A stretch of 38,449 nucleotides of DNA from a virus. Positions within the stretch are counted from its first letter, which is position 1. Each line of letters opens with the position of its first letter. This document shows, piece by piece, positions 15,080-38,307 of the stretch. Position numbers and translations under genes: made by a program. The stretch is from the IMG/VR virus record IMGVR_UViG_3300042935_000423, positions 1-38,449 of that record; one strand, written 5' to 3'. The notes under the pieces were generated by a model. It was not told the DNA's origin and did not search any database. It saw nothing but the letters and a program-made list of their open reading frames with translations.

Positions 15080-15088
15080 ATTACTTAT

Positions 15089-15766: not shown

Positions 15767-15776
15767 TTTTTATTTT

Positions 15777-17006: not shown

Positions 17007-17914
17007 TTTCTTACGTTGTTATAATTTTGTATAAAATATTCAATAGTTTCTTCTAATCCATCTTGTAATTTAGTGAATTGGTAATCTCCAACTATTGATT
17101 TTAAATGAGAGTTATCAGCATATTTTCTAAGTTGGCCATCTGGTTTAGCGGTATCAAAAACTATTTTATTTTGAAATTTCATGATATCACAAATAGTAGT
17201 AACCACTTCTGCTATACTCACTTCTTCAGAAGTTGCCATGATTACTGGCTTAATGCCGTTGTAGTTTTCAATCAAAATTTCACTTAATTTGGCCACGTCT
17301 TTGGAAAATATAAATTGTCTTAAACCTTTTCCAGATCCCCAAACTTGTAAGTCTATATTATTAATTTTTGCTAAGTAAGCTTTATGAATTAACGAAGGTA
17401 TTACGTGGCTTGTTTCTAAGTTATAATTATCATTGGGACCATAGATATTACAAGGTATTACTGAAAAATATTCTGTGCCGTATTGTTGATTGTATGCCTT
17501 AATTTGAATATCATTCGCCCTTTTTGCATGAGCGTATCCGTAGTTAGTTTCATGAGGAGGTCCTAAATGTATTTTTTCTTCTGTAAGAGGCAGTTCTATT
17601 GTTGAAGGAAACACACACGTTGAAGAAAAAGCCAATAGTTTCTTAACGCCAAACTTTCTTGCAGATTCTATAACGTTTGTTCCAATCATTAAATTGTTGT
17701 AGTAATATTCCCCCATCGCTGCCATATTTCCGCCTATGCCACCAACTTTTGCAGCGCAATGTATTATATGAGTAGGTTTGTGATCTTCTACCATTTTATT
17801 AGACTGGTGAGGATCGGTTAAATCGTACTCCTTACCTATTTTAATATCAGCTTTTATTTGGCTGCCTACTAGACCTTTTGCACCTGTAACCATTATTTTT
17901 TTATTACTTTCCAT
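17003..17914 (-). CDS. fcl: GDP-L-fucose synthase-like SDR (first copy)
   Basis: Start at MESNKKIMVTGAKG (ATG 17912-17914); a frame from 18013 would overlap the next gene by 94 bases. Rossmann G-x-x-G-x-x-G at 11-17, catalytic S97/S98-T-C, and Y127-x-x-x-K131. SSTCVFP and NIYGPNDNYN are GDP-fucose-synthase signatures. The family epimerises and reduces GDP-4-keto-6-deoxymannose to GDP-L-fucose with NADPH. A second copy lies at 24453-25352, so one may act on a different 4-keto sugar, such as the product of the RfbH-like or C-methyltransferase steps. Confidence 0.88.
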   Translation of the reverse strand: MESNKKIMVTGAKGLVGSQIKADIKIGKEYDLTDPHQSNKMVEDHKPTHIIHCAAKVGGIGGNMAAMGEYYYNNLMIGTNVIESARKFGVKKLLAFSSTCVFPSTIELPLTEEKIHLGPPHETNYGYAHAKRANDIQIKAYNQQYGTEYFSVIPCNIYGPNDNYNLETSHVIPSLIHKAYLAKINNIDLQVWGSGKGLRQFIFSKDVAKLSEILIENYNGIKPVIMATSEEVSIAEVVTTICDIMKFQNKIVFDTAKPDGQLRKYADNSHLKSIVGDYQFTKLQDGLEETIEYFIQNYNNVRK

Positions 17915-17919
17915 AATTT

Positions 17920-18915
17920 TTATTTTTTCCAAAATGAATAAATGCCTTTGTCTAATTCGTATGAAGGCCAAATGAATCTTTCTCTGTTTGGTTGAAGCTG
18001 AGCCCATAACCACATATCATATAATCCTTCTTCTAATGTGGTCTTATGCTTAAAACCAAGAATGTCTTCTGATTTTTGATACGTAGGAATCGAATGTTTT
18101 ACTTCATGTCTCCCTTCTTTGTATTGATACTCTGCTCCGTATTTAATTATGTCTCTTAATACTTTATTAGCATCATTGATACTCCACTCTTCCACTCCTC
18201 CTAAATTGATAATCTCTTTAGACGCTCTTGGTTCTACCGCTGCATTCCATAGCGGTTCAACTATGTCGTCGATACAACTGAATGCTCTTGTTTGTGTGCC
18301 GTCTCCGAAGATTGTCATTGCTTCTCCATTCATATGTTGATACATCCAAATACCCAACACGTTACGATATTTGTCCCATATATTTTGCTTACGACCATAT
18401 ACATTGTGTGGTCTGATAATAGTCCAATCCAAACCATGTTGTTCTCCAGCAATTTGAATATCCATCTCGCACGCATACTTCGCAACTCCGTATGGATCTA
18501 TTGGTTTTGGCACTTGAGTTTCATCGAATATACCGCCGTTACCATGTCCGTATACCGCTAAAGTAGAAGTAAAAATTAGTCTCTTCACATCGTACTTAAT
18601 ACAATTGTTTACCACTCTTGCTGTTGCTACTAGGTTATTATCGTAGTTGTATCTTCTAATGAATGGACTTAAACCTTCTGCTGCGTAAGCTGCGAAGTGA
18701 AATACATAGTCAAATTCATTAGTAGCAAAACAATTCTCAATAGGATGTTCTACTAAGTTCATTTGCCAGAAGTTAACTTTTTGGTTTACATTCTCTAAGT
18801 ACCCACCTGATAAATCGTCAATACCAACTACTTCTACTTCTGGTTTATTATCTATAATCCAATCTGCAAGTCTTGAACCTAATAAACCCGCTACTCCTGT
18901 TATTAATACTTTCAT
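17920..18915 (-). CDS. NAD-dependent sugar epimerase/dehydratase
   Basis: A 331-residue extended SDR. G-x-x-G-x-x-G at 7-13 (GVAGLLG), FTSTLAVYG near 114, catalytic Y-G-V-A-K near 142, RPHNVYG near 167, and a late substrate-domain block (GDGTQTRAFSCIDD). Closest in layout to UDP-sugar 4-epimerases (GalE/WbpP-like) and related 3,5-epimerase-type SDRs; the exact sugar is not decidable. Five bases from the preceding SDR gene and two bases from the next methyltransferase gene. Confidence 0.85.
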   Translation of the reverse strand: MKVLITGVAGLLGSRLADWIIDNKPEVEVVGIDDLSGGYLENVNQKVNFWQMNLVEHPIENCFATNEFDYVFHFAAYAAEGLSPFIRRYNYDNNLVATARVVNNCIKYDVKRLIFTSTLAVYGHGNGGIFDETQVPKPIDPYGVAKYACEMDIQIAGEQHGLDWTIIRPHNVYGRKQNIWDKYRNVLGIWMYQHMNGEAMTIFGDGTQTRAFSCIDDIVEPLWNAAVEPRASKEIINLGGVEEWSINDANKVLRDIIKYGAEYQYKEGRHEVKHSIPTYQKSEDILGFKHKTTLEEGLYDMWLWAQLQPNRERFIWPSYELDKGIYSFWKK

Positions 18916-18916
18916 A

Positions 18917-19492
18917 CTATTTAATTATTGATACTTTTCTGTTAAACGTAATTAAACCCGTTCCGTGTAAATGTCCTATTTCAGTTAAATCATATTTGTC
19001 TAATAATATAGAATTCCACCAATTGCCCATACCTCCATTTATATGAATATCGTCGCAGAATAAATAGCCTTGCCACTCTATTCTGTGTAACATATCAGTA
19101 AACACTTTTTCCTGTATTCCATCGTGTGGATCTATATCCAAATAGATTACTTCTGCTGAGTGAATAATATCTATGGATTCTTGATTTACATCCAATATTT
19201 TTACTTCTATGTTTGCTACGTTATTTAGGTATTTGTTTTCAAATCTATCAGTGATATCGTATGTAATTATATTATTTGTTGGGTTTTGTTTTAGAGCATA
19301 AGCTGACCATCCATAATGAGTACCTGCATCTAATATAGTTACATTATTAAATTGACTTGAAATATAATTAAGTAATTGAAATGCTTCTCCTTTTCTATAT
19401 ACCCAATCTAAATTTAATTCTTTTTCAAAATATCCGATGTCTTGTTTTAAAACCTCTGAATAATCTATTTTTAAGATTTGCTCTTTGTTCAT
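18917..19492 (-). CDS. Class I methyltransferase-like protein
   Basis: A 191-residue protein. VTILDAGTHYGWSAYAL near 50 is a SAM-binding motif I, IYLDIDPHDG near 116 fits motif IV, and LFCDDIHINGGMGNWW follows. The arrangement resembles small macrocin-O-methyltransferase or cephalosporin-hydroxylase-like enzymes that tailor sugars. An O-methylating role in glycan finishing is an inference. Ends with TAG and overlaps the next gene by one base. Confidence 0.75.
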   Translation of the reverse strand: MNKEQILKIDYSEVLKQDIGYFEKELNLDWVYRKGEAFQLLNYISSQFNNVTILDAGTHYGWSAYALKQNPTNNIITYDITDRFENKYLNNVANIEVKILDVNQESIDIIHSAEVIYLDIDPHDGIQEKVFTDMLHRIEWQGYLFCDDIHINGGMGNWWNSILLDKYDLTEIGHLHGTGLITFNRKVSIIK

Positions 19493-20148
19493 TATAAACT
19501 TTTTTGTGTTACGTGATAATAATAATTGTCTCTTCCATGAAACCCGAATGGTATGTTTCCATAGTTCTCTGCTACCATAGTTTCATGACTAAATTCAGCC
19601 GCCACTTCTATTGGAGCAAACTTACATCCTGCTGATTCGTAAGTTTTTCTATGATGACAACAAAAGAACCCATCTTCGTGATAAAATCCATAATACTGTT
19701 TCCATTCTAAATCTAAATCTTTTGCCACACATAATAACTTTTTACTTCTTAGTGTGAATCCTCCGTTACCCATTCTTTGTATGTTGCCGTCTTGATCCCT
19801 AAAAGAGAAGTCGTCTTGAGGTAGAGGCCATAAAGCTCCTATATAATCGTATTGCATCCACTCTTCTTGCCATTTATCTGGATTAACTACATATCCATCG
19901 TTTTGTACCAATATACAATGCGTTGTGTTAATGTACTCGTGCAATCTATAAACTATAAAGTGGTTATACTGTTCGTAGTTTAAAGGTTCGCATTTGATTA
20001 TCTCTACTACATCGTCTTGTATATCGTCAGGAGTAATTAGGATCGCACGGTCAAACTCTAATTCTCTCATAGAGTACTTGATAGCCTTTAAAGTTTCTGC
20101 AGCTTTAGTGCCTGCTACAGCAGCGATGGTTACGTTATCTAGTTTCAT
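19492..20148 (-). CDS. DUF5672-type glycosyltransferase-like protein
   Basis: A 218-residue protein. KLDNVTIAAVAGTKAAETLKAI, then CILVQNDGYVVNPDKWQEEWMQYDYIGALW, and RMGNGGFTLRSKKL: these blocks match DUF5672, a GT-A-like family often found in bacterial surface-glycan loci. QNDGY supplies the acidic metal-binding pair. Donor and acceptor unknown. Overlaps the adjacent GT2 gene by 14 bases. Confidence 0.82.
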   Translation of the reverse strand: MKLDNVTIAAVAGTKAAETLKAIKYSMRELEFDRAILITPDDIQDDVVEIIKCEPLNYEQYNHFIVYRLHEYINTTHCILVQNDGYVVNPDKWQEEWMQYDYIGALWPLPQDDFSFRDQDGNIQRMGNGGFTLRSKKLLCVAKDLDLEWKQYYGFYHEDGFFCCHHRKTYESAGCKFAPIEVAAEFSHETMVAENYGNIPFGFHGRDNYYYHVTQKSL

Positions 20149-20851
20149 ATCTTCTTATTACTCTTTGAATTTCTTCTTGTTTTTGTTTTTCTGTCATCAT
20201 GTTAGTTGTTCTAACTTTTGCGTTTCTATTTACTGCGCATACTATATCTATAACTACAGGATCTCCGTATAACATGTACAATCTCTTATAGTATTCCACA
20301 TCCACTAGCCAATTTAAAGTCTCATCAAATTTTGGTTTTGTATATTCGTTTCTAATCGTTAATACAGATGGACAACTTATAGTATTAATTCCAGCGTATA
20401 TGCGATCATGATAGTAGGGAGTCATTCTATCATACATAGTTACACAATCATCGGTATGTACACACGCAGTAATGAACCAATCTTTATCTTGATTCTCGGC
20501 TATACTATCGTATATGATTTGAAGAGAATCAGTGTCGTATAAGAAATCGTCTTGAAATAACATCTTGATAAATAGACCACTTGAATGTTCAATGGCATTA
20601 TTCATATTAGGTGCTATCTTGCCTCTACCGTTAGAATTTCTGAGGTACTTAATATCCATCATTGAACTCCAAGAATTGCATAGGTTCTTTATGTCATCGT
20701 CCTCGCTATGATCTGATATAACTACTTCGTAATCTGTGAAGCTCTGTTGCGCTAATATGTTAAATGAGTGTTCTAAGTATTCAACTCCTTTACCTTGAAT
20801 TCCCCATGTGGGGATAGCAACACTAAAAAAAGGTATTACGCTTTTATCCAT
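20135..20851 (-). CDS. Family 2 glycosyltransferase
   Basis: Start chosen at MDKSVIPFFSVAIPTWG (ATG 20849-20851). A longer frame from 20908 runs back into the fucosyltransferase gene. FSVAIPTW at 8-15, YEVVISDHSEDDDI near 40, FIKMLFQDDFLYD near 93 (QDD as the D-x-D equivalent). About 238 residues, a minimal GT2 domain without extra modules. Overlaps the GT11 gene by 16 bases, within the stop region. Confidence 0.8.
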   Translation of the reverse strand: MDKSVIPFFSVAIPTWGIQGKGVEYLEHSFNILAQQSFTDYEVVISDHSEDDDIKNLCNSWSSMMDIKYLRNSNGRGKIAPNMNNAIEHSSGLFIKMLFQDDFLYDTDSLQIIYDSIAENQDKDWFITACVHTDDCVTMYDRMTPYYHDRIYAGINTISCPSVLTIRNEYTKPKFDETLNWLVDVEYYKRLYMLYGDPVVIDIVCAVNRNAKVRTTNMMTEKQKQEEIQRVIRRYETR

Positions 20852-21684
20852 GATTGAGGGTATAAATCTTTTGTATCGTGAACTCCGTTGTATGCAGGTC
20901 CGAACCATTTCTTTGGAGCTATAACTTTCTTATTAGGATTTTGGTTTAACCATGCACCCCACCAACTAAAACTGCTATTAGCTATTACGTTGTGATGGCA
21001 CATACTCATCATACACATATCTACATCAGGATCGTTTCCTTCCATGTAAACAATGTTCTCTTGATCTCCAAATAATTCTTTTGCATATTCTATATCGTCA
21101 GAGAATATTAAGAAACAATAGTTACCATCCATAAAATGGGTCATAGCATTGAAGTAGTAGTCAGCATCCATTACGGGGTGAAACTGTTGAAGACCTGCGT
21201 AATCTCCTTTTCTTAAATGTACTGATACGAATTCTAAATGCATCGGTACAAATGGAGGCAATTTTGGAAATAAGGACTTAGCTTTAGTTTTTGTTTCTGA
21301 ATTGAATTCAAAGAATTCTCGTATTGTTTCGCTACAATGTTCAAAGTACTTCTCTGTTTGAAAGTAACCCATTAGATTTGTTTGATCTGGCACTTTAAAT
21401 AGATCTTGACAGAAGTGGAAGTGTGGTTCTTGTGCTACGTGTAATGTTATTATCTCTGATTGTGGTTTCAATGTCAACTTAACATTTTCAAAATACTTAG
21501 GCAAATCAAAGTATACTTCTCTTCTAACTCCGTCTTTAAAGTCTTCAACGCTTGGTATTTCTGTGTTCTCTATAGGAAATGCTACGCTGTGTCCAACTTT
21601 ATTAGCAACACCTACGGTGGAAGCAAATTGAAACATTTGATTTCCCAGACGCCCGTGATGTCCTATCTTATTATAACTTATCAT
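20836..21684 (-). CDS. Alpha-1,2-fucosyltransferase-like (GT11)
   Basis: A 282-residue protein with the three GT11 blocks in order: GRLGNQMFQFASTVGVANKVG at 11-31, VSVHLRKGDYAGLQQFHPV near 150 (HxRxGDY), and IANSSFSWWGAWLNQNP near 235. These bind GDP-fucose and transfer fucose in alpha-1,2 linkage. Directly relevant to the gmd/fcl genes that would supply GDP-fucose. Its ATG overlaps the TGA of the next SDR gene. Confidence 0.92.
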   Translation of the reverse strand: MISYNKIGHHGRLGNQMFQFASTVGVANKVGHSVAFPIENTEIPSVEDFKDGVRREVYFDLPKYFENVKLTLKPQSEIITLHVAQEPHFHFCQDLFKVPDQTNLMGYFQTEKYFEHCSETIREFFEFNSETKTKAKSLFPKLPPFVPMHLEFVSVHLRKGDYAGLQQFHPVMDADYYFNAMTHFMDGNYCFLIFSDDIEYAKELFGDQENIVYMEGNDPDVDMCMMSMCHHNVIANSSFSWWGAWLNQNPNKKVIAPKKWFGPAYNGVHDTKDLYPQSWIKA

Positions 21685-22496
21685 ATCATTTGTTTAACTG
21701 CTTCGTAAACTCCTATAGATGGGAAAAATCCTAATGATCCCAATTTACTTGAATCCAAATACATGGACTCCACTTGTACTATCTTATGAAAGTCTGATGC
21801 TTCCATTGTTCCTATGTTACTATTAGATCCGATTTCTTGTTTTGCGTAAGCAATAATATCTTTGAATAGCGTTGGTTTTCTTGCAGATCCTAAATTGTAT
21901 ATCTCTCCGCTTTCTCCACGATCCATAACGAACTTAATACCTGCAACTACATCATCAACGTGTACGAAGTCTCTATAGAATTCTCCATTGTTGTACAAGT
22001 TGATATCTCTATTGGCCTTCAATTCGTCTATTAAAAATTGCAATGCGTTCTTTTTCTTTGAAGCTTTACCATCTCCTTTACCTATTACATTTCCAAGTCT
22101 TACGATCTTATACTTAATATTGAAAGTCTTACAATACGATTCTATTAATTGTTCTGCTGCTAACTTAGTTATAGAATAGAATCCCTTTGGTTTACAAGGA
22201 GATGATTCTCTAGCTGGTAAGTGAGTATCACCGTACACAAACCACGAACTGATGAATGTAAACTCTATGTCTTTTCCTTTACAGTTGTCCAATACTTTCA
22301 TTAGATGTATTAGATTTGTTTCTATGTCTACGAAAGGATTTTCTAATACGTTGTAGTTATCTACAGTGCTAATCAAATACAGTACTCTATTAGATCGAGG
22401 TTGTACTTCTTCTCTTGGTATTACTACTGAATCTTCTTTGTATTTTTTATGGAATTTTGATCCTATAAATCCAGTTCCTCCGAATATTGATATCAT
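21681..22496 (-). CDS. NAD-dependent epimerase/dehydratase, short SDR
   Basis: A 271-residue protein. GGTGFIGSKF at 6-15, FISSWFVYG near 81, Y-S-I-T-K near 107 (catalytic YxxxK), VRLGNVIGKG near 133, YRDFVHVDDVV near 169. Fits extended SDRs that reduce or epimerise 4-keto-6-deoxysugars (RmlD/ColC-like). It could be the reductase acting after the RfbH-like enzyme next door. Substrate is inference. ATGA overlap with the fucosyltransferase gene. Confidence 0.82.
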   Translation of the reverse strand: MISIFGGTGFIGSKFHKKYKEDSVVIPREEVQPRSNRVLYLISTVDNYNVLENPFVDIETNLIHLMKVLDNCKGKDIEFTFISSWFVYGDTHLPARESSPCKPKGFYSITKLAAEQLIESYCKTFNIKYKIVRLGNVIGKGDGKASKKKNALQFLIDELKANRDINLYNNGEFYRDFVHVDDVVAGIKFVMDRGESGEIYNLGSARKPTLFKDIIAYAKQEIGSNSNIGTMEASDFHKIVQVESMYLDSSKLGSLGFFPSIGVYEAVKQMI

Positions 22497-23782
22497 TATT
22501 TAAACTTTTTTATTACTTCTTCAATGTATGCAAACACTTGGTCTGTATAGTGAGGCGCTGCACCAATAAAGAATACTTTGTCTAATACTTTGTTTGCTTC
22601 TGGATAATTCTTATAATCGTCCAAGAATGCATAGCCTGGATGCATTAAGATATTTCCTGCAAAATAGTTTCTTGTTTGAATCTTATTCTCTTCTAAGAAT
22701 GCGACTAATCTGTGTTTTAGTCCGTCTTCGTCGCATATAAATGGAGTACCGAACCAACAAGGATCTGCTTGTTCTAATTTAGATGGCGATCTTAAATTTG
22801 GAATGTTGTCTGTAAATATCTTTGTTAGTCTTGCTTTAGCCGATCTTCTCTTTGCTTCCATCTCGTCTAACTTAATTAGCTGTTCTAATCCTATTGCGCC
22901 TTGTAAATCCAATGGTTTTAAGTTATAACCCATTTGAGAGAATACATACTTGTGATCGATAACACCATCGTAATTATCTAACCACTTATCAAATCTATTA
23001 CCGCATGTACCACAAGGCAATAAGTTAGCAGATCCAATGCAATAACAATCTCTACCCCACCAACTAATGCTAACGAATAGTTTCTTTAACTCATCATCGT
23101 TAGTACAAATCATACCGCCTTCACCTGTTGAGATGTGATGCGCTGGGTAAAATGAATTAGAGAATGCAACGTAGTATTCACTTAAGAACTTACCGTTCCA
23201 CTTAGAACCCAAACTATCACAGTTATCTCCAATCAATTTTAAATTGTACTTCTCAGCCAGTGCAATCAATCTATCCATATCTGGAGGATTACCCAATACC
23301 GGAGATATGAAGATGCCTTTTGTTTTGTCTGTTATCTTGGCTTCTACTTGATCTAAGTCAAAGTTAAGTGTATCCCATTCTATATCAACGAATACAGGTT
23401 TTAATCTGTGTTGGTATAACACTGATACTGTAGTAGCAAATCCAACAGGAGATACAATGATTTCGTCATCGTCTTCCCAATTGAATCTCTTCTTTAACGC
23501 AGCAATCAATACCAAGTTAGCAGAGCTACCTGAATTTACCATGTGCGAGTGCTTAACATTGAATCTCTTACTGAATTGGTTTTCAAACTTGTAAACCTTT
23601 TCACCTGTAGTAATCCATTTACCGTTTAAGAAACTTTCTATTGCAGCTTCGGTCTCTTTATTATCCCAATAAGGACCTGAGTAGTAGATTGGTGTTTTGC
23701 CTGGCGTAAAGTTCTTAGCATTGTAAATGTAAGGAGCTACGTGGTTACCAACTAACTCTTGTATGTTTTCTAATTTAATCAT
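22496..23782 (-). CDS. RfbH/ColD-type PLP sugar 3-dehydratase with His for Lys
   Basis: Start at MIKLENIQELVG (ATG 23780-23782), giving 428 residues; a longer frame from 23863 starts inside the DUF3431 gene. A DegT/DnrJ-like fold with the active site FYPAHHISTGEGG at 211-223, where H215 aligns to the usual PLP-binding lysine. That His marks dehydratases of the RfbH (E1) and ColD type rather than aminotransferases. GDNCDSLG (C188) and WWGRDCYCIG...CGTCGNRF (C246, C248, C257, C260) match the [2Fe-2S] ligand pattern of RfbH. Product would be a 3-deoxy-4-keto sugar. Confidence 0.88.
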   Translation of the reverse strand: MIKLENIQELVGNHVAPYIYNAKNFTPGKTPIYYSGPYWDNKETEAAIESFLNGKWITTGEKVYKFENQFSKRFNVKHSHMVNSGSSANLVLIAALKKRFNWEDDDEIIVSPVGFATTVSVLYQHRLKPVFVDIEWDTLNFDLDQVEAKITDKTKGIFISPVLGNPPDMDRLIALAEKYNLKLIGDNCDSLGSKWNGKFLSEYYVAFSNSFYPAHHISTGEGGMICTNDDELKKLFVSISWWGRDCYCIGSANLLPCGTCGNRFDKWLDNYDGVIDHKYVFSQMGYNLKPLDLQGAIGLEQLIKLDEMEAKRRSAKARLTKIFTDNIPNLRSPSKLEQADPCWFGTPFICDEDGLKHRLVAFLEENKIQTRNYFAGNILMHPGYAFLDDYKNYPEANKVLDKVFFIGAAPHYTDQVFAYIEEVIKKFK

Positions 23783-24453
23783 TTTATGTTTGGGTTGAAT
23801 ATATAACATTCTAATCTTTCTATCATCCAAGGCGCTGATGCATCTTCTAATAGAAAATCGCATACTTTTTTATAAAATTCTTTTGATCTTAATTGTGCGT
23901 GTTGTTTTGTAATTCCGAAATGACCACCTGGCATGAATTCGTATTCTGTTGGAGGAGGCGCTTGTTCGAAGAACATACTCCAATACCTATCCACATCTAT
24001 ATCAGGATTAGAGTCTTGTGGTGCTCCATTACTTTGGCAAATTAATACTCGCCCTTCTCCATGTTGTTTAGACTGACTTAGTCCCCACATTGTGCCGCCT
24101 AGCGGAGATGGGACTGTTATAGTATTGAAATGAAATCCGTAATAACCCCCTATTTTTAATTGACATCTTGATTCTTCTGTTCCGCTATTTACGACTTCTA
24201 TAATATCTTCCCAATGATCGAAAGGCCAATCTTGACCGAAGAATGTAATATCTGACAGATTATCGTAATTCGTGTATATGTGATTAAAGAAAGTGTGTAC
24301 GCACCTTCCTTTGTTTGGTTCTAATTTAATCTCGTCTTCTCTTTGTTTTGCTTCATCTCCTTTTCTATATACAGTTACTTTAACATCTGCGTTGAGTTTA
24401 TCTAACCAATCTAAGTACTTATCGTATGCTGCTACAACTAATTCTCTTGTCAT
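23779..24453 (-). CDS. DUF3431-type protein, glycosylation-associated
   Basis: A 224-residue protein. LVVAAYDKYLDWLDKL, then VTVYRKGDEAKQRE, NKGRCVHTFFNHIYTNYDNLSDITFFGQ and PFDHW: this series matches DUF3431, a GT-A-like family found in surface-polysaccharide loci ('YN-LDWL', 'VTIYNKG', 'THL-HI--NYD-L-D-T-F-Q'). ATGA overlap with the dehydratase gene and TAATG overlap with the GDP-fucose synthase gene keep it inside the sugar operon. Activity not proven for the family. Confidence 0.78.
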   Translation of the reverse strand: MTRELVVAAYDKYLDWLDKLNADVKVTVYRKGDEAKQREDEIKLEPNKGRCVHTFFNHIYTNYDNLSDITFFGQDWPFDHWEDIIEVVNSGTEESRCQLKIGGYYGFHFNTITVPSPLGGTMWGLSQSKQHGEGRVLICQSNGAPQDSNPDIDVDRYWSMFFEQAPPPTEYEFMPGGHFGITKQHAQLRSKEFYKKVCDFLLEDASAPWMIERLECYIFNPNIK

Positions 24454-25352
24454 TACTTTCTAACTTTTGGATAATTTAATATAAACCATTCTATCGATTC
24501 TTTTAAACCTTTCTCCAAAGTGGTGAATTCATATTCTCCAATGATACTCAAAAGTTTGGCGTTTGAAGATGGTTTTCTGTGTTGACCATTTGGTTTGTCT
24601 GTCAACCACTTTACTTTCCCTTTGAAGCCCATGTACTCCACAATCAGATCAACTACTTGCTTAATAGAATACTCAGTTGGATTTGATATGATCACTGGTT
24701 CAGTCCCTGTGTATTTCTGGATAAGTAGATCTACTATGTTCGCTACGTCTTTTGAATAGACAAACTCTCTAAGTGGAGTACCATCACCCCATACTTCAAA
24801 AGTCTTTCTATTCTTTTTGGCAAGATAACACTTGTGAATTAACATTGGAATTACGTGACCTACTTCTAAGCTATAGTTATCGTTTGGTCCGTATACATTA
24901 CAAGGAATCACTGAAAAGTATTGTGTACCGTATTGTTGGTTAAACGCTCTAATCTGTACGTCAGCCATTCTCTTAGCGTAAGCGTAAGCGAAGTTAGATG
25001 GGTGTGGAGGACCTAATTCTATTTTAGTTTCGTCTAATGGATATTCCACGTTACCTGGAAATACGCACGTTGATAAAAATGAAACTAACTTTGGTATCTT
25101 TAACTCTTGACAAGCTTGAATCACATTAGTATTCATTCTAATATTGTCCATAAAAAAATCAGCAGGAAATTGCATGTTAGCCCCGACTCCGCCGACTTTT
25201 GCTGCGCAATGTACTACCACATCTGGCTTGTACATTGATATTGCGAATTTAGCTTTATCGTAATCTCTTAAATCTCTCTTAGAACTTAATTTAACTCCTT
25301 GATTGAAAGCAGATCCTATTAATCCAGTTCCTCCAGTAATTACTTTTGTCAT
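24453..25352 (-). CDS. fcl: GDP-L-fucose synthase
   Basis: A 299-residue SDR. G7-G-T-G-L-I-G13 nucleotide site, catalytic S94-T-C96, Y123-x-x-x-K127, and H166 in LEVGHVIP, all in the positions of the E. coli enzyme (S107, C109, Y136, K140, H179). Converts GDP-4-keto-6-deoxymannose to GDP-L-fucose with NADPH. It overlaps gmd by one base (TAATG), the usual gmd-fcl pair. A second, more diverged copy lies at 17003-17914. Confidence 0.92.
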   Translation of the reverse strand: MTKVITGGTGLIGSAFNQGVKLSSKRDLRDYDKAKFAISMYKPDVVVHCAAKVGGVGANMQFPADFFMDNIRMNTNVIQACQELKIPKLVSFLSTCVFPGNVEYPLDETKIELGPPHPSNFAYAYAKRMADVQIRAFNQQYGTQYFSVIPCNVYGPNDNYSLEVGHVIPMLIHKCYLAKKNRKTFEVWGDGTPLREFVYSKDVANIVDLLIQKYTGTEPVIISNPTEYSIKQVVDLIVEYMGFKGKVKWLTDKPNGQHRKPSSNAKLLSIIGEYEFTTLEKGLKESIEWFILNYPKVRK

Positions 25353-26335
25353 TAGAATACTCTATTTAATTCTTTTAACCAATATGAAATCATTTCATCC
25401 AACATTGTTTCAAATGTATAAGTGGGTTTCCAACCAGTAGCTTTCATTAATTTGCTAGGATCTCCTTTTAAATCTGTTAACTCTTCTGGTCTTAGAAACT
25501 TCATGTCTAACTTTACATAGTCTTCGTAGTTCAATTCTAGCTTATTAAAAACATACTCGCACAACTGTCTAACCGAATGCGAAGTACCAGTAGCGCAAAC
25601 AAAATCGTCGGCATCTTCTAATTGTAATATTCTCCACATAGCTTCTACATAATCTTTAGCATGACCCCAATCTCTTGTTGCTTCTAAGTTACCCAATCTC
25701 AATTCTGTTGATTGACCGTAGAATATCTTAACAGCTTCTTTAACTACTTTATTTGTTACGAAGTTAGTACCCCTTCTTGGTGATTCGTGGTTAAATAGAA
25801 TTCCATTAGATACGAACATACCATAAGAGTTTCTATAATTTCTTGTTATGTTGTATCCAAATACTTTAGCGCAACCGTAAGGAGATACTGGATTCATCGG
25901 TGTGGTCTCTCTTTGAAATCTATCTTCGTCTATAGAGTTTCCAAACATTTCCGAAGAAGAGGCTTGATATATCTTTGCATTCTTACACATAGATAGAGTA
26001 GCTTCCAATAAATTAAGAGTTCCAATTGCCACTGTGTTTGCCGTGTATACTGGTTGATCGAAAGAGATTCTTACATGCGATTGAGCCGCTAAGTTGTATA
26101 TCTCGTCTGGTTGTACTTTGCTTAGCACTCTATTAAGAGAGGCTAGATCGGTCATATCAGCGTAAGTCAAATTATCTTTGATCTGATCGTATACTTTGAT
26201 TCTCGCTGTTTGATTTTCAGCTACAGAGTTTCTCTTCAGAGTGCCGTGTACTTCGTAACCTTTATCTAATAGTAACTCTGCTAAGTATGATCCGTCTTGA
26301 CCGTTAATTCCAGTAATTAATGCTACTTTACTCAT
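25352..26335 (-). CDS. gmd: GDP-mannose 4,6-dehydratase
   Basis: A 327-residue extended SDR starting MSKVALITGINGQDGSYLAEL. G9-x-x-G-x-x-G15 NADP site, GTLKR, SSSEMFG at 126-132 (catalytic S/E), SPYGCAKVFG with Y153 and K157, and RRGTNFVTNKV. All family landmarks are present, so it should be active, converting GDP-D-mannose to GDP-4-keto-6-deoxy-D-mannose, the entry step to GDP-fucose and GDP-colitose-type sugars. GDP-mannose must come from the host; no ManB/ManC gene is visible. Confidence 0.95.
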   Translation of the reverse strand: MSKVALITGINGQDGSYLAELLLDKGYEVHGTLKRNSVAENQTARIKVYDQIKDNLTYADMTDLASLNRVLSKVQPDEIYNLAAQSHVRISFDQPVYTANTVAIGTLNLLEATLSMCKNAKIYQASSSEMFGNSIDEDRFQRETTPMNPVSPYGCAKVFGYNITRNYRNSYGMFVSNGILFNHESPRRGTNFVTNKVVKEAVKIFYGQSTELRLGNLEATRDWGHAKDYVEAMWRILQLEDADDFVCATGTSHSVRQLCEYVFNKLELNYEDYVKLDMKFLRPEELTDLKGDPSKLMKATGWKPTYTFETMLDEMISYWLKELNRVF

Positions 26336-26943
26336 ATAGTGTTGTATAAAGAATTTTGTTTTACTTGTCTGTCAATATCTTTAGGATGGTACAAAGCCCA
26401 GTCTTCAAATTCAGCAGGAAATATAGATGAGGTTTTCCAACCTTCCAATCTTTCGTGAACTTTACCGACCCATTGAATTGACTCGATGTTCTTACATATT
26501 CTTGTTTGATAATCAGGCCAATTAACTCGGCCTTTTTCGTCTACTCTCCAATGCCATGTTTTGATGTGTTCTTCAGTAAGACCTTTAACAGTGTTTACTC
26601 TAGGAACTCCATAACATTCTACATTACTATTCGCTTCTAATACCTCTTTAATTAATTTTAATAGGTGCTCAGAAAGGTATTCGTCCGCATCAATAAAAAA
26701 GATGTAGTCTCCTGTACAATTTTTCTTTAGATTATTTTTAAAAGCGGCAAAGTCTTTGTTAAGAGGAAATGTGATCGACTTTACAGGATATGCATCTACA
26801 ACAAACTTTACTTTGTCTGTAGCGGTGTCGTCTAACTGAATAATGATCTCATCTTCGCCTTGCTTACCTTGTGTAAGTTGCTTTAATAGCCTGTTTAATT
26901 CCTCTGCTTCGTTGTGAGCGGTGATTGCGTAACTTATTTTCAT
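26332..26943 (-). CDS. Family 2 glycosyltransferase, WaaE/KdtX-like
   Basis: A 203-residue protein starting MKISYAITAHNEAEELNRLL, with DEIIIQLDD near 35 and GDYIFFIDADEYLSEHLL near 78 (DADE as DxD). The pattern resembles LPS-core GT2 enzymes of the WaaE type. Minimal domain, no membrane helix. ATGA overlap with gmd, so co-expressed with GDP-sugar synthesis. Confidence 0.85.
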   Translation of the reverse strand: MKISYAITAHNEAEELNRLLKQLTQGKQGEDEIIIQLDDTATDKVKFVVDAYPVKSITFPLNKDFAAFKNNLKKNCTGDYIFFIDADEYLSEHLLKLIKEVLEANSNVECYGVPRVNTVKGLTEEHIKTWHWRVDEKGRVNWPDYQTRICKNIESIQWVGKVHERLEGWKTSSIFPAEFEDWALYHPKDIDRQVKQNSLYNTI

Positions 26944-26948
26944 ATTCT

Positions 26949-27395
26949 TTATTTTATTTCAAATAACCCAATATAATCGCAAGAGTCAAAGAAGTCGCTT
27001 CCGAATCCTTTTAGACTAGCTGAATCTGATTTGTGGGTTTTGCCTTTGAATTTTGGAGTCTCTTTCTCTTCTTCTGTCAATTCAATAGATTTGATTGCAC
27101 TCCACTCCCAATCTTCAGCGCTACTTCCATTTGCGAATACTGTGCCTTGATTTTCTATATTAATTACTTGAGGATACCACACTCGTTTATCTTCATCTAC
27201 GTATTTGATATCTTTGTATAATTCTGGAAATTCGGCTTCGTATTGTTCGAAATCAAATTCTCCCTCTCTCATTAAATCGCTCGTAGTAAATCCACAGCTA
27301 AAGCATGCATATACATTATGAAACTCATTGATAGGCGTAACATAACAAGCATCTTCTGCTTTACACTTTGGACATATTGTTAATTGATCAGTCAT
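26949..27395 (-). CDS. Zinc-ribbon phage protein
   Basis: A 148-residue protein. CPKCKAEDACYVTPI...YACFSCGFTT gives CxxC and CxxC about 25 residues apart, a classic zinc ribbon at 8-38. An acidic middle with DEDKRVWYPQVINIENQGTVF follows; this 'YPQVIN' type segment recurs in conserved phage proteins of unknown function. Overlaps by eight bases with the following S/T-rich gene. Confidence 0.8.
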   Translation of the reverse strand: MTDQLTICPKCKAEDACYVTPINEFHNVYACFSCGFTTSDLMREGEFDFEQYEAEFPELYKDIKYVDEDKRVWYPQVINIENQGTVFANGSSAEDWEWSAIKSIELTEEEKETPKFKGKTHKSDSASLKGFGSDFFDSCDYIGLFEIK

Positions 27396-27723
27396 TTAAT
27401 AATGTTTTTTCGTTAGAAGTTGTATAACTAATTGTACTACCTGATGGAAGTGATGTACTTGTTGATGTTGATATGTCTCCAAAAGATGCTACATATGGAT
27501 TAGCAATTGTAATATAACCAGTACCAGGAGTTGTTGTAATTGTTGTCCCCGTTGGTGTTTCTGGACCTCTTGTTGAATTAGGCGTTCCAACAAAAGGATA
27601 TGTTTGATCATTTACTTCTGCTAATTTTTCTTTTAATATATCCCACTGTTTTGGGGTTATATTAAAATCGTGGACTCCTTCGGTAAATCCCTTCAGCCAT
27701 AATATGAATTCTTTACTTGTCAT
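27388..27723 (-). CDS. Phage protein with Thr/Ser-rich tail
   Basis: A 111-residue protein. The N-terminal 40 residues (EFILWLKGFTEGVHDFNITPKQWDILKEKLAEV) are a conserved phage-type helical module (WLKGF..., TPKQW). After NDQTYPFVG comes a 60-residue tail rich in Thr, Ser, Gly and Pro, low complexity and probably flexible. It sits between glycosyltransferase genes, so the tail is a candidate glycan acceptor, which is inference only. Overlaps both neighbours by 8-11 bases. Confidence 0.75.
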   Translation of the reverse strand: MTSKEFILWLKGFTEGVHDFNITPKQWDILKEKLAEVNDQTYPFVGTPNSTRGPETPTGTTITTTPGTGYITIANPYVASFGDISTSTSTSLPSGSTISYTTSNEKTLLND

Positions 27724-29011
27724 TTTTAACTTCTATTTTTTTAAGTTTAGGTAATGTCAATCCTACTTGTTTAGGAATTTTATCTAAATAAGTTCCCAAT
27801 AAAGTCTTCATCTCATCAAAGCTAAATTTGGTTTTTGATTGATGCGCTTGCTTCTTCGCTCTCTCTTCGTACTTAGAATACTTCTCGTATACATCTCTTA
27901 AATAGAACTCTGCTTGTTTTGTATCAGGACTAAACCATGCTGACTCTTTTATTAAAAGATTTTCTACTACTGCAGAAGGATGAATTTGTTTTAAAGCTCC
28001 TCCAATAAGACAGCAGTTTTCCATAAACAAAAAATCAACGTGTCCAGAGTACGCTGTAGTTATGATAGGCTTTTTTGATAATGTGAATTCTAAAAGAGGT
28101 CTGCCAAATCCTTCTCCTTTAGTTAAATTAAACATAGCCTTTACTTTTCCGTGATTATATAAGTTGTTTATGTCTTTATCATCCATCTCTCCGTGAAGTA
28201 GATAAATGTTCGGCAAATTTCCACTCACAGATTTTTTTACTATATCGATCTTTCTTAAAATCTCTTCCCTATCCATAATACTAGATCCAGCTCCTGATGT
28301 TTTAATTATTAAAGCAGGTTGGCTCTTTCTGTTTTTAAAAGTCTCTAAAAACGTTTTTATCATTAATGGAACGTTCTTTCTGTCTTCTCCAAATTCCCCT
28401 TGTAACCAATGTCCAACAAACAAGTAACAGAAGTCTTCTTTTATTTCATCCAAAGCCTGAACCAATTCAGTGCCGTCTAAATCTTCGTCTGCTACATAAA
28501 AATATTTGTTCAGATCAACGCCTTCGAATAATACTTCAATGGGTTTTTCTGCTTTTATTTCTTTAATTACTTGTCCTGTGGTTTTATCTTGCTCTTTAAA
28601 TCCTGAATTTAACATCACGTTTTTAGCGTGTTGAGAAGAAACTAATGTTAAATTCATTCTATTTATTCCCTCTATCCAAGTTGCAGGACATATTGTAGTT
28701 TCTATACCTGCGGTTACTCCAATATTATATTTTCCCACTGGTTGAAATTCATTAGGAACCGTGATTTGAATCCAAACATCTGGCTGTTTTGGCATTTGGC
28801 TAGATTTAAGTATTAATTTTTCCAACCATCCCCACTCCTGCTCATTGTCTTTTATGTATCCCCATGGAGTAACTCCCCATCTTTGAGCTATGATATTGAA
28901 TTCGTATTCGTCTTTTTTTAATTCATATAGAGCTTTAAAAAAATCTCTAGATCTTGCACCGTAACCTGAATATGTGTCTATTGGGCAACTTATCACACAG
29001 TATTGTTTCAT
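27713..29011 (-). CDS. Family 4-like (GT-B) glycosyltransferase
   Basis: A 432-residue protein. An N-terminal GT-B half starts with CVISCPIDTYSGYGARSRDFF (G-x-G acceptor loop). The C-terminal half has FVGHWLQGEFGEDRKN, LLHGEMDDKDINNLYNHGKV, and FNLTKGEGFGRPLLEFTLSKKPIITTAYSG near 291-320, which is the E-x7-E donor-binding region of GT4. A GT-B enzyme using an activated sugar; identity unknown. Two bases from the other GT-B gene. Confidence 0.88.
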   Translation of the reverse strand: MKQYCVISCPIDTYSGYGARSRDFFKALYELKKDEYEFNIIAQRWGVTPWGYIKDNEQEWGWLEKLILKSSQMPKQPDVWIQITVPNEFQPVGKYNIGVTAGIETTICPATWIEGINRMNLTLVSSQHAKNVMLNSGFKEQDKTTGQVIKEIKAEKPIEVLFEGVDLNKYFYVADEDLDGTELVQALDEIKEDFCYLFVGHWLQGEFGEDRKNVPLMIKTFLETFKNRKSQPALIIKTSGAGSSIMDREEILRKIDIVKKSVSGNLPNIYLLHGEMDDKDINNLYNHGKVKAMFNLTKGEGFGRPLLEFTLSKKPIITTAYSGHVDFLFMENCCLIGGALKQIHPSAVVENLLIKESAWFSPDTKQAEFYLRDVYEKYSKYEERAKKQAHQSKTKFSFDEMKTLLGTYLDKIPKQVGLTLPKLKKIEVKNDK

Positions 29012-29012
29012 A

Positions 29013-30455
29013 TTAATATATTAATTTATGAGCTATTTTTTTTCTTGGTAAATCTTCTACTTTAATTAATTCAAATTGTTTTCTTGGTTTAAATTTTTCA
29101 AAAGTTTCTTCTATGCAGTCTAATACGTTTTGACACATATTACTAGAACTCATCATTGATTCTTTTGATTGGGCCCATTTTCTACCTTCTAGTCCTCTTT
29201 TCTCCCTCTCTTCAGATGGAAGTTCATACACTTTCTGTATAGATTTTGCTAGATCTCTAAAGTCCAATCTATCATCGAATATATAAGGCGTAGGAATAGA
29301 TCCTACAATGCTTGAATTGCTAGGGAATACAGGTTCTGCCCATTCTCCATGTTTTTTATAGGTGCCGAAGTGATTAGAGCAAAAGTTTTCATTAAAATCA
29401 ATCCAATTGCCTTGCTCATCTTCAAATCTCATTTGGTCTTGCATTCCTCCAGTAACTGTTGCTATAATCATTTTACCTGTCATCATAGATTCTGTCAATG
29501 ATAGTCCCCATCCTTCGTTAGAAGAAGGCAAACACGTTACGTCTGATAAATTATAAAGTAAATTTATTTGATCTGCTCCTACTCTAGAATCATGAATAAT
29601 CACTCTTTGATATTCAGGGTCGCAAAACAAATCTCTTACTACCCCTAAATCTGTACCATTTTCATCAGTCACTTGAGTGTGCATAAGTAGCGCACATTTT
29701 TTAGCTTTTTCTTTTCCTATAGTATCACAAAAAACAGAATATGCAAGAATTAAATCAGAAGTACATTTTCTTCTAATGTTTCTTGCGTTATAAAAAATTA
29801 CAAATTCTGGTATGTCTTCTCCAAAAACCGCTTTCTTTTTTACCTGTAATTTTTCATATTCGTCTTTCATGAATTCATTGATAGGGAAAAATATCTTTTC
29901 ATTAATACCGTGAGGAACATATTTTAAAACTTTGTTTTTTACTTTATCGCCTAATACAACTCTATTGATATTTAAAGTTTGTTTTGAAATAGCCATAAGA
30001 GTATCGCAAGATTCATAATATGCTTTATTGTATAAAGGCGCAGGTAAATCATCCCAAATGTTTAAATAAATCATAGGAATCTTTCTTCTAACTTCATTTT
30101 CCATTTGAAATAACCAGGTCCAATATCTTGGATCTGTAAAAAACATAATTGCGTCAGGTTTCTCTATGTCAAGAAGTTGTCTAACTAATTCAGGGGATCC
30201 GTAACCATTTATTGGATAAATAAAAACTGAAGCATCTGGAATTCCCATGATATTGTTAGTGTCTTCAGAAATATCGAGTCTCTTCCCTGCGTCTGGATGT
30301 TGTATTGCACCTCCTAAGTTTATCCAATTAAATCTATGAGATGTGCCTATAACTATCTCTCTTGCCATGGTAGATATACCGCTGGTCATTCTAATATCAT
30401 CGCACATAAATAGGATCTTTTTTCTTTGATCCTGAGGAATGTAACCTTTTATCAT
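29013..30455 (-). CDS. Family 4-like (GT-B) glycosyltransferase, larger
   Basis: A 480-residue protein. RKKILFMCDDIRMTSGISTMA near 11 (G-I-x-T-M GT-B loop), DAIMFFTDPRYWTWLF, VIFYNARNIRRKCTSDLILAY near 219, and CLPSSNEGWGLSLTESMMTGKMIIATVTGG near 308-337, the GT4 E-x7-E block. C-terminal 60 residues are basic and may bind the acceptor. Probably the promoter-proximal GT of the block, since only the small regulator gene lies upstream. Confidence 0.88.
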   Translation of the reverse strand: MIKGYIPQDQRKKILFMCDDIRMTSGISTMAREIVIGTSHRFNWINLGGAIQHPDAGKRLDISEDTNNIMGIPDASVFIYPINGYGSPELVRQLLDIEKPDAIMFFTDPRYWTWLFQMENEVRRKIPMIYLNIWDDLPAPLYNKAYYESCDTLMAISKQTLNINRVVLGDKVKNKVLKYVPHGINEKIFFPINEFMKDEYEKLQVKKKAVFGEDIPEFVIFYNARNIRRKCTSDLILAYSVFCDTIGKEKAKKCALLMHTQVTDENGTDLGVVRDLFCDPEYQRVIIHDSRVGADQINLLYNLSDVTCLPSSNEGWGLSLTESMMTGKMIIATVTGGMQDQMRFEDEQGNWIDFNENFCSNHFGTYKKHGEWAEPVFPSNSSIVGSIPTPYIFDDRLDFRDLAKSIQKVYELPSEEREKRGLEGRKWAQSKESMMSSSNMCQNVLDCIEETFEKFKPRKQFELIKVEDLPRKKIAHKLIY

Positions 30456-34323: not shown

Positions 34324-34636
34324 ATTTAGTAAAGAATCTGACTCGTGAAACACCAGATTGTACTTAATTTTGTTTTCTCACATTTTAAGTGGTCACCTAT
34401 GGATGTAGTCTCTACTAAAAAAATTTAGGAAAGCAGAAGATGGGTGCGTGGACATCTGCTTTTACGATTGGCATTACTTTGGCTTTCGCCCCCTCAACCA
34501 TATATCAGCCCTTTCTACAGTTAAAAGATATAAGTTTTCCCAATCAACCTTAATATTGAAACAAACTATCCACAATTTTTCTAAGTCGCCATCCAAGTCA
34601 TGCTCTGGTTAAACCAGCGGCAGATAGTTATGTTTG
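34324..34636 (-). ncRNA. Structured gene-free spacer between tRNA-Glu and tRNA-Thr
   Basis: No ORF is supported, but several paired segments are visible. There is a 7-bp inverted pair TTTAGTA/TACTAAA (34325-34331 with 34413-34419), a hairpin AAAGCAGA/TCTGCTTT (34430-34437 with 34455-34462), and a perfect GGC-GAAA-GCC tetraloop (34481-34490). A tRNA-sized 66-nt unit is closed by AACTATC/GATAGTT (34564-34570 with 34623-34629). The AAAGCAGA hairpin is followed on the minus strand by T7 a few bases later and may terminate. It may be one structured RNA or spacer pieces processed from the tRNA precursor. Confidence 0.4.
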
Positions 34637-34708
34637 TACTCTGTACGGGATTCGAACCCGTATTACGCCCGTGAAAGGGGAGTGAACTAACCCTTATTCG
34701 AACAGAGC
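34637..34708 (-). tRNA. tRNA-Glu (anticodon TTC)
   Basis: 72 nt. Acceptor GCTCTGT/ACAGAGT (G1-U72 wobble), anticodon arm CTCCC-CTTTCAC-GGGCG (anticodon TTC, one mismatch at 28-42), T loop TTCGAAT on TACGGG/CCCGTA. The CTTTCAC loop is exactly that of bacterial tRNA-Glu. Directly downstream of the terminator. Confidence 0.9.
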
Positions 34709-34711
34709 AAT

Positions 34712-34751
34712 AAAAAAGGCTCTAACTGAAGTTTAAAACAATTAGAGCCTT
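34712..34751 (-). terminator. Rho-independent terminator
   Basis: Minus-strand stem GGCTCTAA/TTAGAGCC (8 bp, extended by A-T pairs), loop of 16 bases, followed by TTTTTT at 34712-34717. It lies at the 3' edge of the 0.93-kb structured RNA region and four bases upstream of tRNA-Glu, so it should end that transcript. Confidence 0.85.
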
Positions 34752-35680
34752 TGATAAGTTTTGTTAAAGCTTGAGACTACAGCTTCGACATGCAAAATCT
34801 TTAAGAGGATTATTTTGTTTCCCTCTCTGTCCAGTTCCTTTTGAGATCTATCTTTGCAATGCCAATTGATTAGGTCAATTACACCTTGAGCTACTTTAAT
34901 TTAGTGGGATACTCTCTTTTTACTCCAACCGTTCAACTCTGCCGAGCTGATACATCCTTGCGAGATTACGACCTTTTAGAAAGAATACTCTCAGACTTGC
35001 GATCTTTGAGTGCAACGAACCTCTCGTTACTGTGTAGGCATCTTTCTCCCGTAGCTGGCAAGCGCTTAAGCTTATGATTATATTAATTTTGATAAATTGA
35101 AATCAAAGTTTTGACTTGTGGATCGTAAAGGTAGCGGCTTGCCACTGAACCTGCTCAGCTTTTGGCCAAGTAGATATTCAACTACCTTTTGAGATATCCC
35201 TATCTCGGTTATTTTAGACAACTTCGTCAAAGAGTCTTGGTAGACTTCTTCGAAGGAAAGTAGCAGCACCATCTGTTCTCTTTCTTACCTTAAGGTTTTT
35301 AGCCATTCGGTTTTAAATCGCCATTCAATACTAGTGTGCGCAATAGTGTAATTGGATAAACTACATTTCTTGCATAATCACTCTCAGATTATTCTTATTG
35401 CTCTTCCAAGCTCAATCAGACAACCCACATTGCCTGATCACCAAACCATTTCGCTACGGAGTTACCCTCACTACTACAGGTCCAATGATATTCTGATTGC
35501 ATACTCGAGCTTATTGCTAAGCCGCAAATAGGTTCAGTCAAACCTACTCACTTTATACTTGTTTCCAAGTTTATTTAACGACTATATGCCGCCGACGTTA
35601 TTTAGGATTTCTCCACGGATAACAATATTTTCAAAGAGCTATGTTTCAATGTTATAAAGCTAATATATAACATCTTTTCG
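34752..35680 (-). ncRNA. Large structured non-coding RNA candidate (about 0.93 kb)
   Basis: No convincing coding frame over 0.93 kb in a genome otherwise packed with genes. The minus strand has many perfect short hairpins, several with GNRA loops: ACTTG-GAAA-CAAGT (35557-35570), GCTTA-GCAA-TAAGC (35509-35522), AGATA-GGGA-TATCT (35192-35205) and GCTT-GGAA-GAGC (35400-35411), plus GTAGGTT/AACCTAT (35528-35547). The 5' edge has an 8-bp hairpin, ATGTTATA/TATAACAT. A rho-independent terminator ends it and tmRNA and tRNAs flank it. Size and setting resemble the ornate phage RNAs GOLLD and ROOL; identity is not established. Confidence 0.6.
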
Positions 35681-35723: not shown

Positions 35724-36094
35724 TGGTGGAGATGACGGCATCGAAGCCGTGTCTTCACAATGAACAATAATACCAACGTCTCACACGCTTAGATCTGTTT
35801 TTATCCTGATCAGTAAAAGGGTCGTATGGTTTTTTGGTCCTTACGATATCCACCACTTAATTTTAATCTAAACTAAGAAAATCTGGTTTGTAACTTCTGT
35901 TCCTAGGATGTTACACCCGATGCTAATTAAGCCGCTAATGCGTACTCGTTCGCGCCAACGAATTCCATTAAGGAATCGAAGGTCATTGTTGACATTTCGT
36001 CAGTTGTTGTTTTGTACGTAGTTTAAAGAGATACAGTACTTATCTCTGCGTGTGGTATTACCTCCAAATTGCGAATCAATTCCAAAGCATCCCC
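35724..36094 (-). ncRNA. ssrA: tmRNA (SsrA RNA)
   Basis: 371 nt. The 5' GGGGATG pairs with the 3' CATCTCC, keeping the G3-U70 wobble that tmRNA uses for alanine charging, followed by encoded ACCA. The T arm is ACGGC-TTCGAT-GCCGT. The long helix AATACC/GGTATT plus ACACG/CGTGT joins the two halves. Pseudoknot 1 is AGAGATA/TATCTCT with its loop GTAC pairing to a downstream GTAC. The tag frame ends ...GANEYALAA-TAA (stop at 35927-35929), like Bacteroidota tags. Fifteen sense codons in the same frame precede GANEYALAA, so the tag may be longer. It frees stalled ribosomes in trans-translation. Confidence 0.93.
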
Positions 36095-36906: not shown

Positions 36907-36908
36907 TT
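36894..36908 (-). repeat. 15-bp intergenic motif, copy 6 (diverged)
   Basis: Minus-strand AACCAACGAGTTATA, 12 of 15 identical to copy 2. The adjacent tract GGATATTCTTTTTTA is shared with the copy-2 region at 795-809, extending the repeat to about 36 bp. Confidence 0.6.
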
Positions 36909-38307
36909 ATAAATTCAATCTGCTACCAATCATGAAAGATCTTATTGGTATGCTTCCGTCTGCGCTGCTCAACATCACTTTAAAGTTAACGTTCACCTTA
37001 AACTTCCTAGTGATTTTAAAGTCGGTAGCAAAGCCAGTTAAGAACGTTAAGTCTCTGCTTCTTGTTTGAGCTCCGTCTTTTAAAGAGATTCCCCATGGAG
37101 CAGCTATCATAAATAGATCAGGCGTTACAGTCTTTCTGCCTACAGTTATGGGATACATGGCGAAGCTGATTATTGAAGGGGATAGACTAATCGATCCTCC
37201 TTGAATGAACGCAGTGTTAGCGCTTATATTATAGCCGGTGATTAGCTTGTCTATTGGTTGAATATACGTGTACGCTGGAAATATCATGTGATTACTGAAG
37301 TCGGTAAAATACGTCATACCGAAGTTGTGCATCGCTTCTAATTGACCTCTACCATTCATTTGACTCTTTGTGTAACTTCCACCTACTGCTATCTTACTCA
37401 AGTCCAAGAATATGCTTGCGTTTGCACCGAAGTTGGAAAGTCCTGTCATTGAAGACTTAGAAACTCCCATATTCATTGTTGGTACTAGCTTTCTATTAGG
37501 CGCTTGCTCTGCTACGCTTAAATCTGCAGAGAATATCATTGGATTTACAGCAGCCGCTTTTTTCTTTTCTTCCTTCTTTTTGTCTTCTTTCTTCTTCTCT
37601 TCTTTTTTCTCTTCTGATTTGCTCTCTTCTTTCTTTTCTTCGGACTTAGTCTCTTCTTTTTTCTCTTCCGACTTCGATTCAGATTTGCTCTCTTCAGACT
37701 TGCTCTCTGATTTTGTTTCCGACTTAGTTTCTGATTTTGTTTCTGTACTTGAGCTTTTGCTCTCTGAGCTTGAGCTTGATGACGACGATGAGCCAGAAGA
37801 CGACGACGATTGGGAGGACGAAGAGGAGGAAGACGAAGTTGGTGGCGGTGCTGAGGATGCCGCCGAAGTCGATGCGGTGGAAGCGCTTGATGACGCTGCA
37901 CTTGATGCACTCGAACTTGCAGCGGATGATGCAGCCGAACTTGCAGCACTTGAAGCTGCTGAGCTTGCTGCGGAAGATGCTGCGGATGCTGCGGCTTGAG
38001 TTGCTGCGTTTGCTGCTGTGGTTGCTATTATTGCTGTTGCTTGTTGTGATACTGGACATGGCGTTGCGAATATGGATTTAATCCAAGCATCTACTGTGCC
38101 TGATGCAAAGTCTGCGTAAGTAAATAATCGAGATTTTCCCCTAACTATGACTAAAACGCCCGGGGAATTTGAAGCTATGGGAGATACGAATGTGTAAACC
38201 TTGCTATCGCATGGATCTATGTAAGTGTTAACAATATTTTGCCCTTTAGCATTCAGAGCTAATAAGGACGAAACTGATATTGCAAACGTTACTATCCATT
38301 TTTTCAT
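36907..38307 (-). CDS. Secreted low-complexity protein with beta-rich C-terminus
   Basis: A 466-residue protein. Signal peptide at residues 1-22 (MKKWIVTFAISVSSLLALNAKG); a small domain to about 90 with two Cys (PCDSKVY, TPCPV). Then an Ala/Ser repeat (AASS units, about 95-165), a Ser/Glu/Lys tract (about 165-255), and a 210-residue beta-rich end that looks like an outer-membrane-barrel-type domain. It may be a surface or periplasmic phage-encoded protein; the low-complexity tract could be a flexible linker or glycan acceptor. Overlaps the next upstream gene by one base (TAATG). Confidence 0.75.
   Translation of the reverse strand: MKKWIVTFAISVSSLLALNAKGQNIVNTYIDPCDSKVYTFVSPIASNSPGVLVIVRGKSRLFTYADFASGTVDAWIKSIFATPCPVSQQATAIIATTAANAATQAAASAASSAASSAASSAASSAASSAASSSASSAASSSASTASTSAASSAPPPTSSSSSSSSQSSSSSGSSSSSSSSSESKSSSTETKSETKSETKSESKSEESKSESKSEEKKEETKSEEKKEESKSEEKKEEKKKEDKKKEEKKKAAAVNPMIFSADLSVAEQAPNRKLVPTMNMGVSKSSMTGLSNFGANASIFLDLSKIAVGGSYTKSQMNGRGQLEAMHNFGMTYFTDFSNHMIFPAYTYIQPIDKLITGYNISANTAFIQGGSISLSPSIISFAMYPITVGRKTVTPDLFMIAAPWGISLKDGAQTRSRDLTFLTGFATDFKITRKFKVNVNFKVMLSSADGSIPIRSFMIGSRLNL

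Follow-up and report, generated by a model that had tools for sequence, protein, structure and literature searches.

The window analysed here, the whole 38,449 nucleotides of an IMG/VR virus record (IMGVR_UViG_3300042935_000423), carries on its minus strand, at approximately 34768-35639, a full-length GOLLD RNA of about 870 nt. With refined limits, a boxA-like leader element forms the upstream edge of this RNA (35639), the 5' domain starts at about 35597 and the 3' domain stops at 34768; counted from boxA through the last base matched by the Rfam GOLLD model RF02032, the RNA measures 872 nt. Upstream on the same strand lies a tmRNA gene (35724-36094) that is recognized by Rfam model RF00023 with 73.6 bits and missed by ARAGORN, in agreement with a preliminary description of the region made from the sequence alone. 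One reading frame of this tmRNA ends in EFVGANEYALAA followed by a stop and constitutes a plausible degradation tag. Downstream, the GOLLD transcript ends at an intrinsic terminator (34709-34752, minus strand) composed of a 14-bp stem and a T-run (-18.7 kcal/mol), which a sigma-70-type scan had missed because its loop is longer than the scan allows. The preliminary description, which covered positions 34752 to 35680, had this interval end at a strong rho-independent terminator: the terminator is real but lies just outside the interval, position 34752 being its first base. A tRNA-Glu(ttc) gene, detected by both ARAGORN and Rfam, follows directly (34636-34708, minus strand), and the order tmRNA, GOLLD, tRNA on one strand was also observed in three close relatives (L040, L052 and L054).

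The interval had been described as hairpin-rich and devoid of any convincing open reading frame, and both statements withstood closer analysis. Its longest ORF encodes only 64 amino acids (35078-35272, minus strand), in a frame that is interrupted by stop codons in 52 of 56 homologues and by length changes that are not multiples of three in 40 of the 56, and the longest stop-free stretch of the window sequence (68 amino acids) is shorter than the mean of 80 obtained after shuffling. Small ORFs of up to 64 amino acids are all that would speak for a decayed protein-coding region, an explanation refuted by the broken frames and chance-level ORF lengths and, given the strong covariation described below, left with practically no probability. 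Codon-like variation among homologues without covariation had been named beforehand as the observation that would speak against a structured RNA; as far as this could be tested, the opposite was found. The minus strand folds with -236.1 kcal/mol, compared to -216.4 ± 7.9 kcal/mol for 20 shuffled sequences (z = -2.49), which supports the abundance of hairpins modestly. Folding of a single sequence was consequently dropped as a proof of structure and replaced by covariation among homologues, which supports it strongly. The GNRA loops reported earlier could also be recognized, as GGAA and GCAA in the window sequence and as a conserved GAAA-type loop in the alignment.

GOLLD RNAs are encoded by phages and prophages, often near tRNA genes; many members exceed 800 nt, and their expression rises during phage lysis. 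Using Infernal with Rfam models, as had been proposed, we found that the 3' half of the region (34768-35189, minus strand) matches RF02032 over the whole model (positions 1-416) with 232.4 bits in cmscan (E-value 7.3e-65), that is 82 bits above the gathering cut-off of 150. An A/U-rich linker, which appears as a stretch of variable length in the alignment, lies within this match at about 35065-35125 (minus strand, approximate limits), and no Rfam tRNA match was found in it. ROOL gave no Rfam match up to an E-value of 1 between 33300 and 36950, nor did any other large RNA family at lax Rfam thresholds, with the exception of the tmRNA at 35724-36094. The match above the gathering cut-off, the presence of two domains, the length above 800 nt, the origin in a virus record and the tRNA and tmRNA neighbours make it virtually certain that this minus-strand RNA is a member of the GOLLD family. 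The suggestion of a giant structured phage RNA of the GOLLD or ROOL type was therefore correct, and that of a new family is contradicted by the full-model match. The 5' half does fall beyond the reach of the Rfam model, and no relative of it was detected among Acinetobacter-phage or mycobacterial GOLLDs, as a new, non-GOLLD family of giant phage RNA would have it; however, with the 3' half scoring so far over the cut-off and both halves occurring together in 63 non-redundant homologues, a new family is extremely improbable. The alternative suggestion of a divergent Bacteroidota member came close: the RNA belongs to a GOLLD group that occurs mainly in phages whose promoters are of the Bacteroidota type, but the family itself was already known.

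The 5' domain of this GOLLD (35190-35597, minus strand) was identified by its homology to other GOLLD 5' halves. A blastn search with the whole region matched the 5' half, with 72-75% identity over part of its length, in two uncultured huge phages (LR745206 and LR756502), both of which carry RF02032 just downstream of the match. Two pattern scans of viral contigs, the first set of hits being confirmed by RF02032 and the second by profiles, yielded 63 non-redundant full-length GOLLDs sharing this 5' domain, in which the 5' and 3' halves co-occur. One copy (L095) is identical to the window over the whole compared stretch; L096 comes next, its 5' half being 94.6% and its 3' half 92.9% identical. 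Within the group, the 5' domain of the window resembles its counterparts about as closely as the 3' domain does. RNAalifold applied to 56 aligned sequences predicted 191 base pairs, 151 of which display changes on both sides. Scores of 42 column pairs exceeded every score of 20 null alignments simulated without structure on the inferred tree, and 36 of these pairs, 16 from the 5' domain and 20 from the 3' domain, belong to the predicted structure; as the substitution parameters were set by hand, this procedure approximates R-scape and is not R-scape itself. Six column pairs of the alignment (A1 columns 682-745, 860-1042, 1076-1132, 828-899, 585-592 and 138-153) covary above all nulls outside the nested structure and are candidates for pseudoknots or for contacts between the subunits of a cage. 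In bacterial genomes, only two of 22 pattern matches, both mycobacterial, were also matched by profile, and both were confirmed by the covariance model. Profile searches for the 5' domain detected nothing in the GOLLDs of Acinetobacter or mycobacteria and only a weak trace in one further GOLLD, which fits the published diversity of 5' domains among GOLLDs (PMC12286853).

The window RNA can be compared with several named GOLLDs. With the known GOLLD RNA (Rfam RF02032), whose env-38 member has a reported structure (PMC12286853), it shares the whole-model 3' domain, a length above 800 nt, the two-domain organization, the A/U-rich linker, the phage origin and the tRNA neighbours. It differs from the Rfam GOLLD in its 5' domain, which comes from a group outside the Rfam model, in its boxA leader and in a linker without tRNA. 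The GOLLDs of LR745206 and LR756502 (genomes of 634,780 and 642,428 bp) have both domains in common with the window, and that of LR756502 has no boxA match by the pattern used. Those of Acinetobacter phages AM24, Bestia and Ab15 share the 3' domain and lie within a tRNA cluster; no 5' domain of the window type was detectable in them.

The boxA-like element of the window, GCTCTTTGAA (35630-35639, minus strand), is the only exact match to GYTCTTTGAA in the 38-kb window. It is preceded by a leader segment in which folding predicts a 9-bp A/U-rich hairpin (35641-35680, minus strand, approximate limits) just upstream of boxA, a hairpin also present in the close relative L096. The motif GYTCTTTGA was found in the leaders of 53 of the 63 non-redundant GOLLDs, as compared to 0.09 loci expected from shuffles; in the rest of that DNA its frequency is about 150-fold lower. 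When no motif was chosen beforehand, the commonest leader 9-mer was GTTCTTTGA, present in 50 of 58 leaders and separated from the 5' domain by about 12 to 215 nt, while the rest of the leader is hard to align. Since the 63 loci are related and do not represent 63 independent events, the stronger argument is this variable spacing within leaders that have diverged. In most of the Bacteroidota 16S leaders examined an element of the GTTCTTTGA type is present, as a rule 82-146 nt ahead of the 16S gene; close variants such as GTTCATAGA occur in some of the others. We read GTTCTTTGA as a boxA since both its sequence and its place match these Bacteroidota rRNA leaders. In bacterial rRNA leaders boxA is the NusB-NusE binding site (PMC4807359, PMC5725501), and in both settings a AGTTCTTTGA-type sequence lies within the leader of an RNA that is long and untranslated; the window element differs in that it precedes a phage GOLLD. 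The GOLLDs of Acinetobacter phages Bestia, Ab15 and AM24 showed no boxA in their vicinity, nor did those of mycobacteria. We accordingly rejected boxA as a universal feature of GOLLD and attribute the element to this phage group rather than to GOLLD as such.

Could GTTCTTTGA be a piece of the GOLLD fold that closes the RNA by pairing with an invariant AAAG near its 3' end? RNAalifold indeed pairs columns 3-7 with columns 1104-1110, that is the TCTTT of boxA with AAAG of the 3' domain. These columns do not covary, but both sides hardly vary, and such invariance neither supports the pairing nor counts against it. The 12-215 nt range of spacing to the 5' domain, the existence of GOLLDs without the motif and its occurrence before some tRNA, tmRNA and 16S genes nevertheless make a purely structural role unlikely. 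Among 34 other copies of the motif, seven precede tRNA or tmRNA genes, compared to 2.9% at random positions. Copies at a distance of 13-31 nt ahead of such genes occur in L114 (at +760 relative to GOLLD), L134 (+981), L153 (-6338), L159 and L204, and a boxA-like signal may serve the stable RNAs of these phages in general. In L138, GTTCTTTAACAAT (6633-6645) lies about 400 nt upstream of a GOLLD-like RNA that scores 140 bits, just under the cut-off; this sequence is presumably close to the proteobacterial form of boxA, and the case might mean that the boxA element follows the host.

A box of sequence TAnnTTTG, which we take to be the Bacteroidota -7 promoter element, was found within 120 nt upstream of boxA in 45 of 57 loci, most often 34-35 nt away, compared to 11% at random positions. 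This preferred distance would be expected if the motif were an extension of a phage promoter or a DNA-binding site instead of an RNA signal; however, the motif is located downstream of the expected start, within the transcript, and corresponds to an rRNA leader element that itself lies within the pre-rRNA, so that we consider a promoter or DNA site improbable and retain the boxA reading. In the window no exact TAnnTTTG was found upstream of boxA, and a scan for the sigma-70 consensus around the locus gave results near chance. The window GOLLD would be transcribed either from a degenerate box or by polymerase reading on from the tmRNA, which is flanked on its 3' side by an A/T-rich hairpin.

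Taken as a whole, the locus is very likely a tailed-phage gene for a GOLLD RNA, which would be transcribed under the control of its boxA leader and then assemble into a cage. Its product is an untranslated RNA of two GOLLD domains with covarying helices that stops at an intrinsic terminator. The boxA of the leader would recruit host NusB and S10 (NusE) and thereby render the polymerase Rho-resistant along this long untranslated RNA, as in rRNA operons; judging from the sequence of the element, such boxA-dependent antitermination of GOLLD is probable. The env-38 GOLLD was shown by cryo-EM to form a homo-14-mer, a hollow cage without protein in which the 5' domains form the caps, the 3' domains form the rings and the linker lies inside (PMC12286853). 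By analogy, 14 copies of the window GOLLD would assemble in the same way, which we regard as quite likely. The translation machinery might in turn be a target of the cage at a late stage of infection, for instance if the cage held tRNAs or parts of the ribosome; this last step is proposed tentatively on account of a ribosome pull-down for GOLLD and of tRNAs inside some linkers (both cited in PMC12286853), together with the tRNA and tmRNA gene neighbours observed here. More generally, we moderately favor the view that Bacteroidota phages have placed GOLLD under the boxA/NusB-S10 antitermination of the host rRNA type, so that it would be made, and perhaps assisted in its folding, like rRNA. If true, RNA cages would be tied to the machinery of ribosome synthesis. 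The boxA leader suggests a testable link from GOLLD to the machinery that makes rRNA. The group is large and can be aligned, its 5' domain covaries, and it has candidate promoters, a terminator and the boxA leader; together these offer handles on how such an RNA is made. The GOLLD family being already known, the boxA leader is the part that we could not find described: the searchable literature, outside which many subscription papers lie, contained no relevant paper naming GOLLD together with boxA, and an earlier mention is possible.

The source of the window is probably a tailed phage of a Bacteroidota host, the host being pointed to by the TAnnTTTG boxes of related loci and by a gene block resembling that of Flavobacterium phage vB_FspM_immuto (MW353176). 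This phage, the nearest named genome by that one block, shares with the window, in the same order, a PD-(D/E)XK nuclease (40.5% identity), a small protein and two glycosyltransferases; no GOLLD was found in its genome. A 466-aa protein encoded at 36907-38307 (minus strand) has a low-complexity middle rich in Ala/Ser and Lys/Glu/Ser and no PHROGs or Pfam match. The window also encodes an RNA ligase of the T4 tail-fibre-attachment type, and a long run of glycosyltransferase, nucleotide-sugar epimerase, aminotransferase and methyltransferase-like genes (11016-30455, minus strand) looks as if it were a phage-encoded glycan pathway. Beyond the tRNA-Glu gene, about 310 gene-free bases (34324-34635, minus strand) separate it from a tRNA-Thr gene and contain a hairpin formed by AAAAGCAGATG and CATCTTCTGCTTT followed by a T-run, possibly a further small RNA or the terminator of one. 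The segment 34118-34247 (minus strand), called as a tRNA neither by ARAGORN, even with introns allowed, nor by Rfam, has the ends TGCCGGT...ACCGGCACC and a long variable arm, so that by eye it resembles a tRNA of class II (Leu-type) into which additional bases have been inserted. Finally, in locus L155 (3940-4517, minus strand) the matches to a group I intron (3940-4164) and to a tmRNA (4136-4517) overlap at the end of the latter, as if the intron interrupted or abutted a phage tmRNA.
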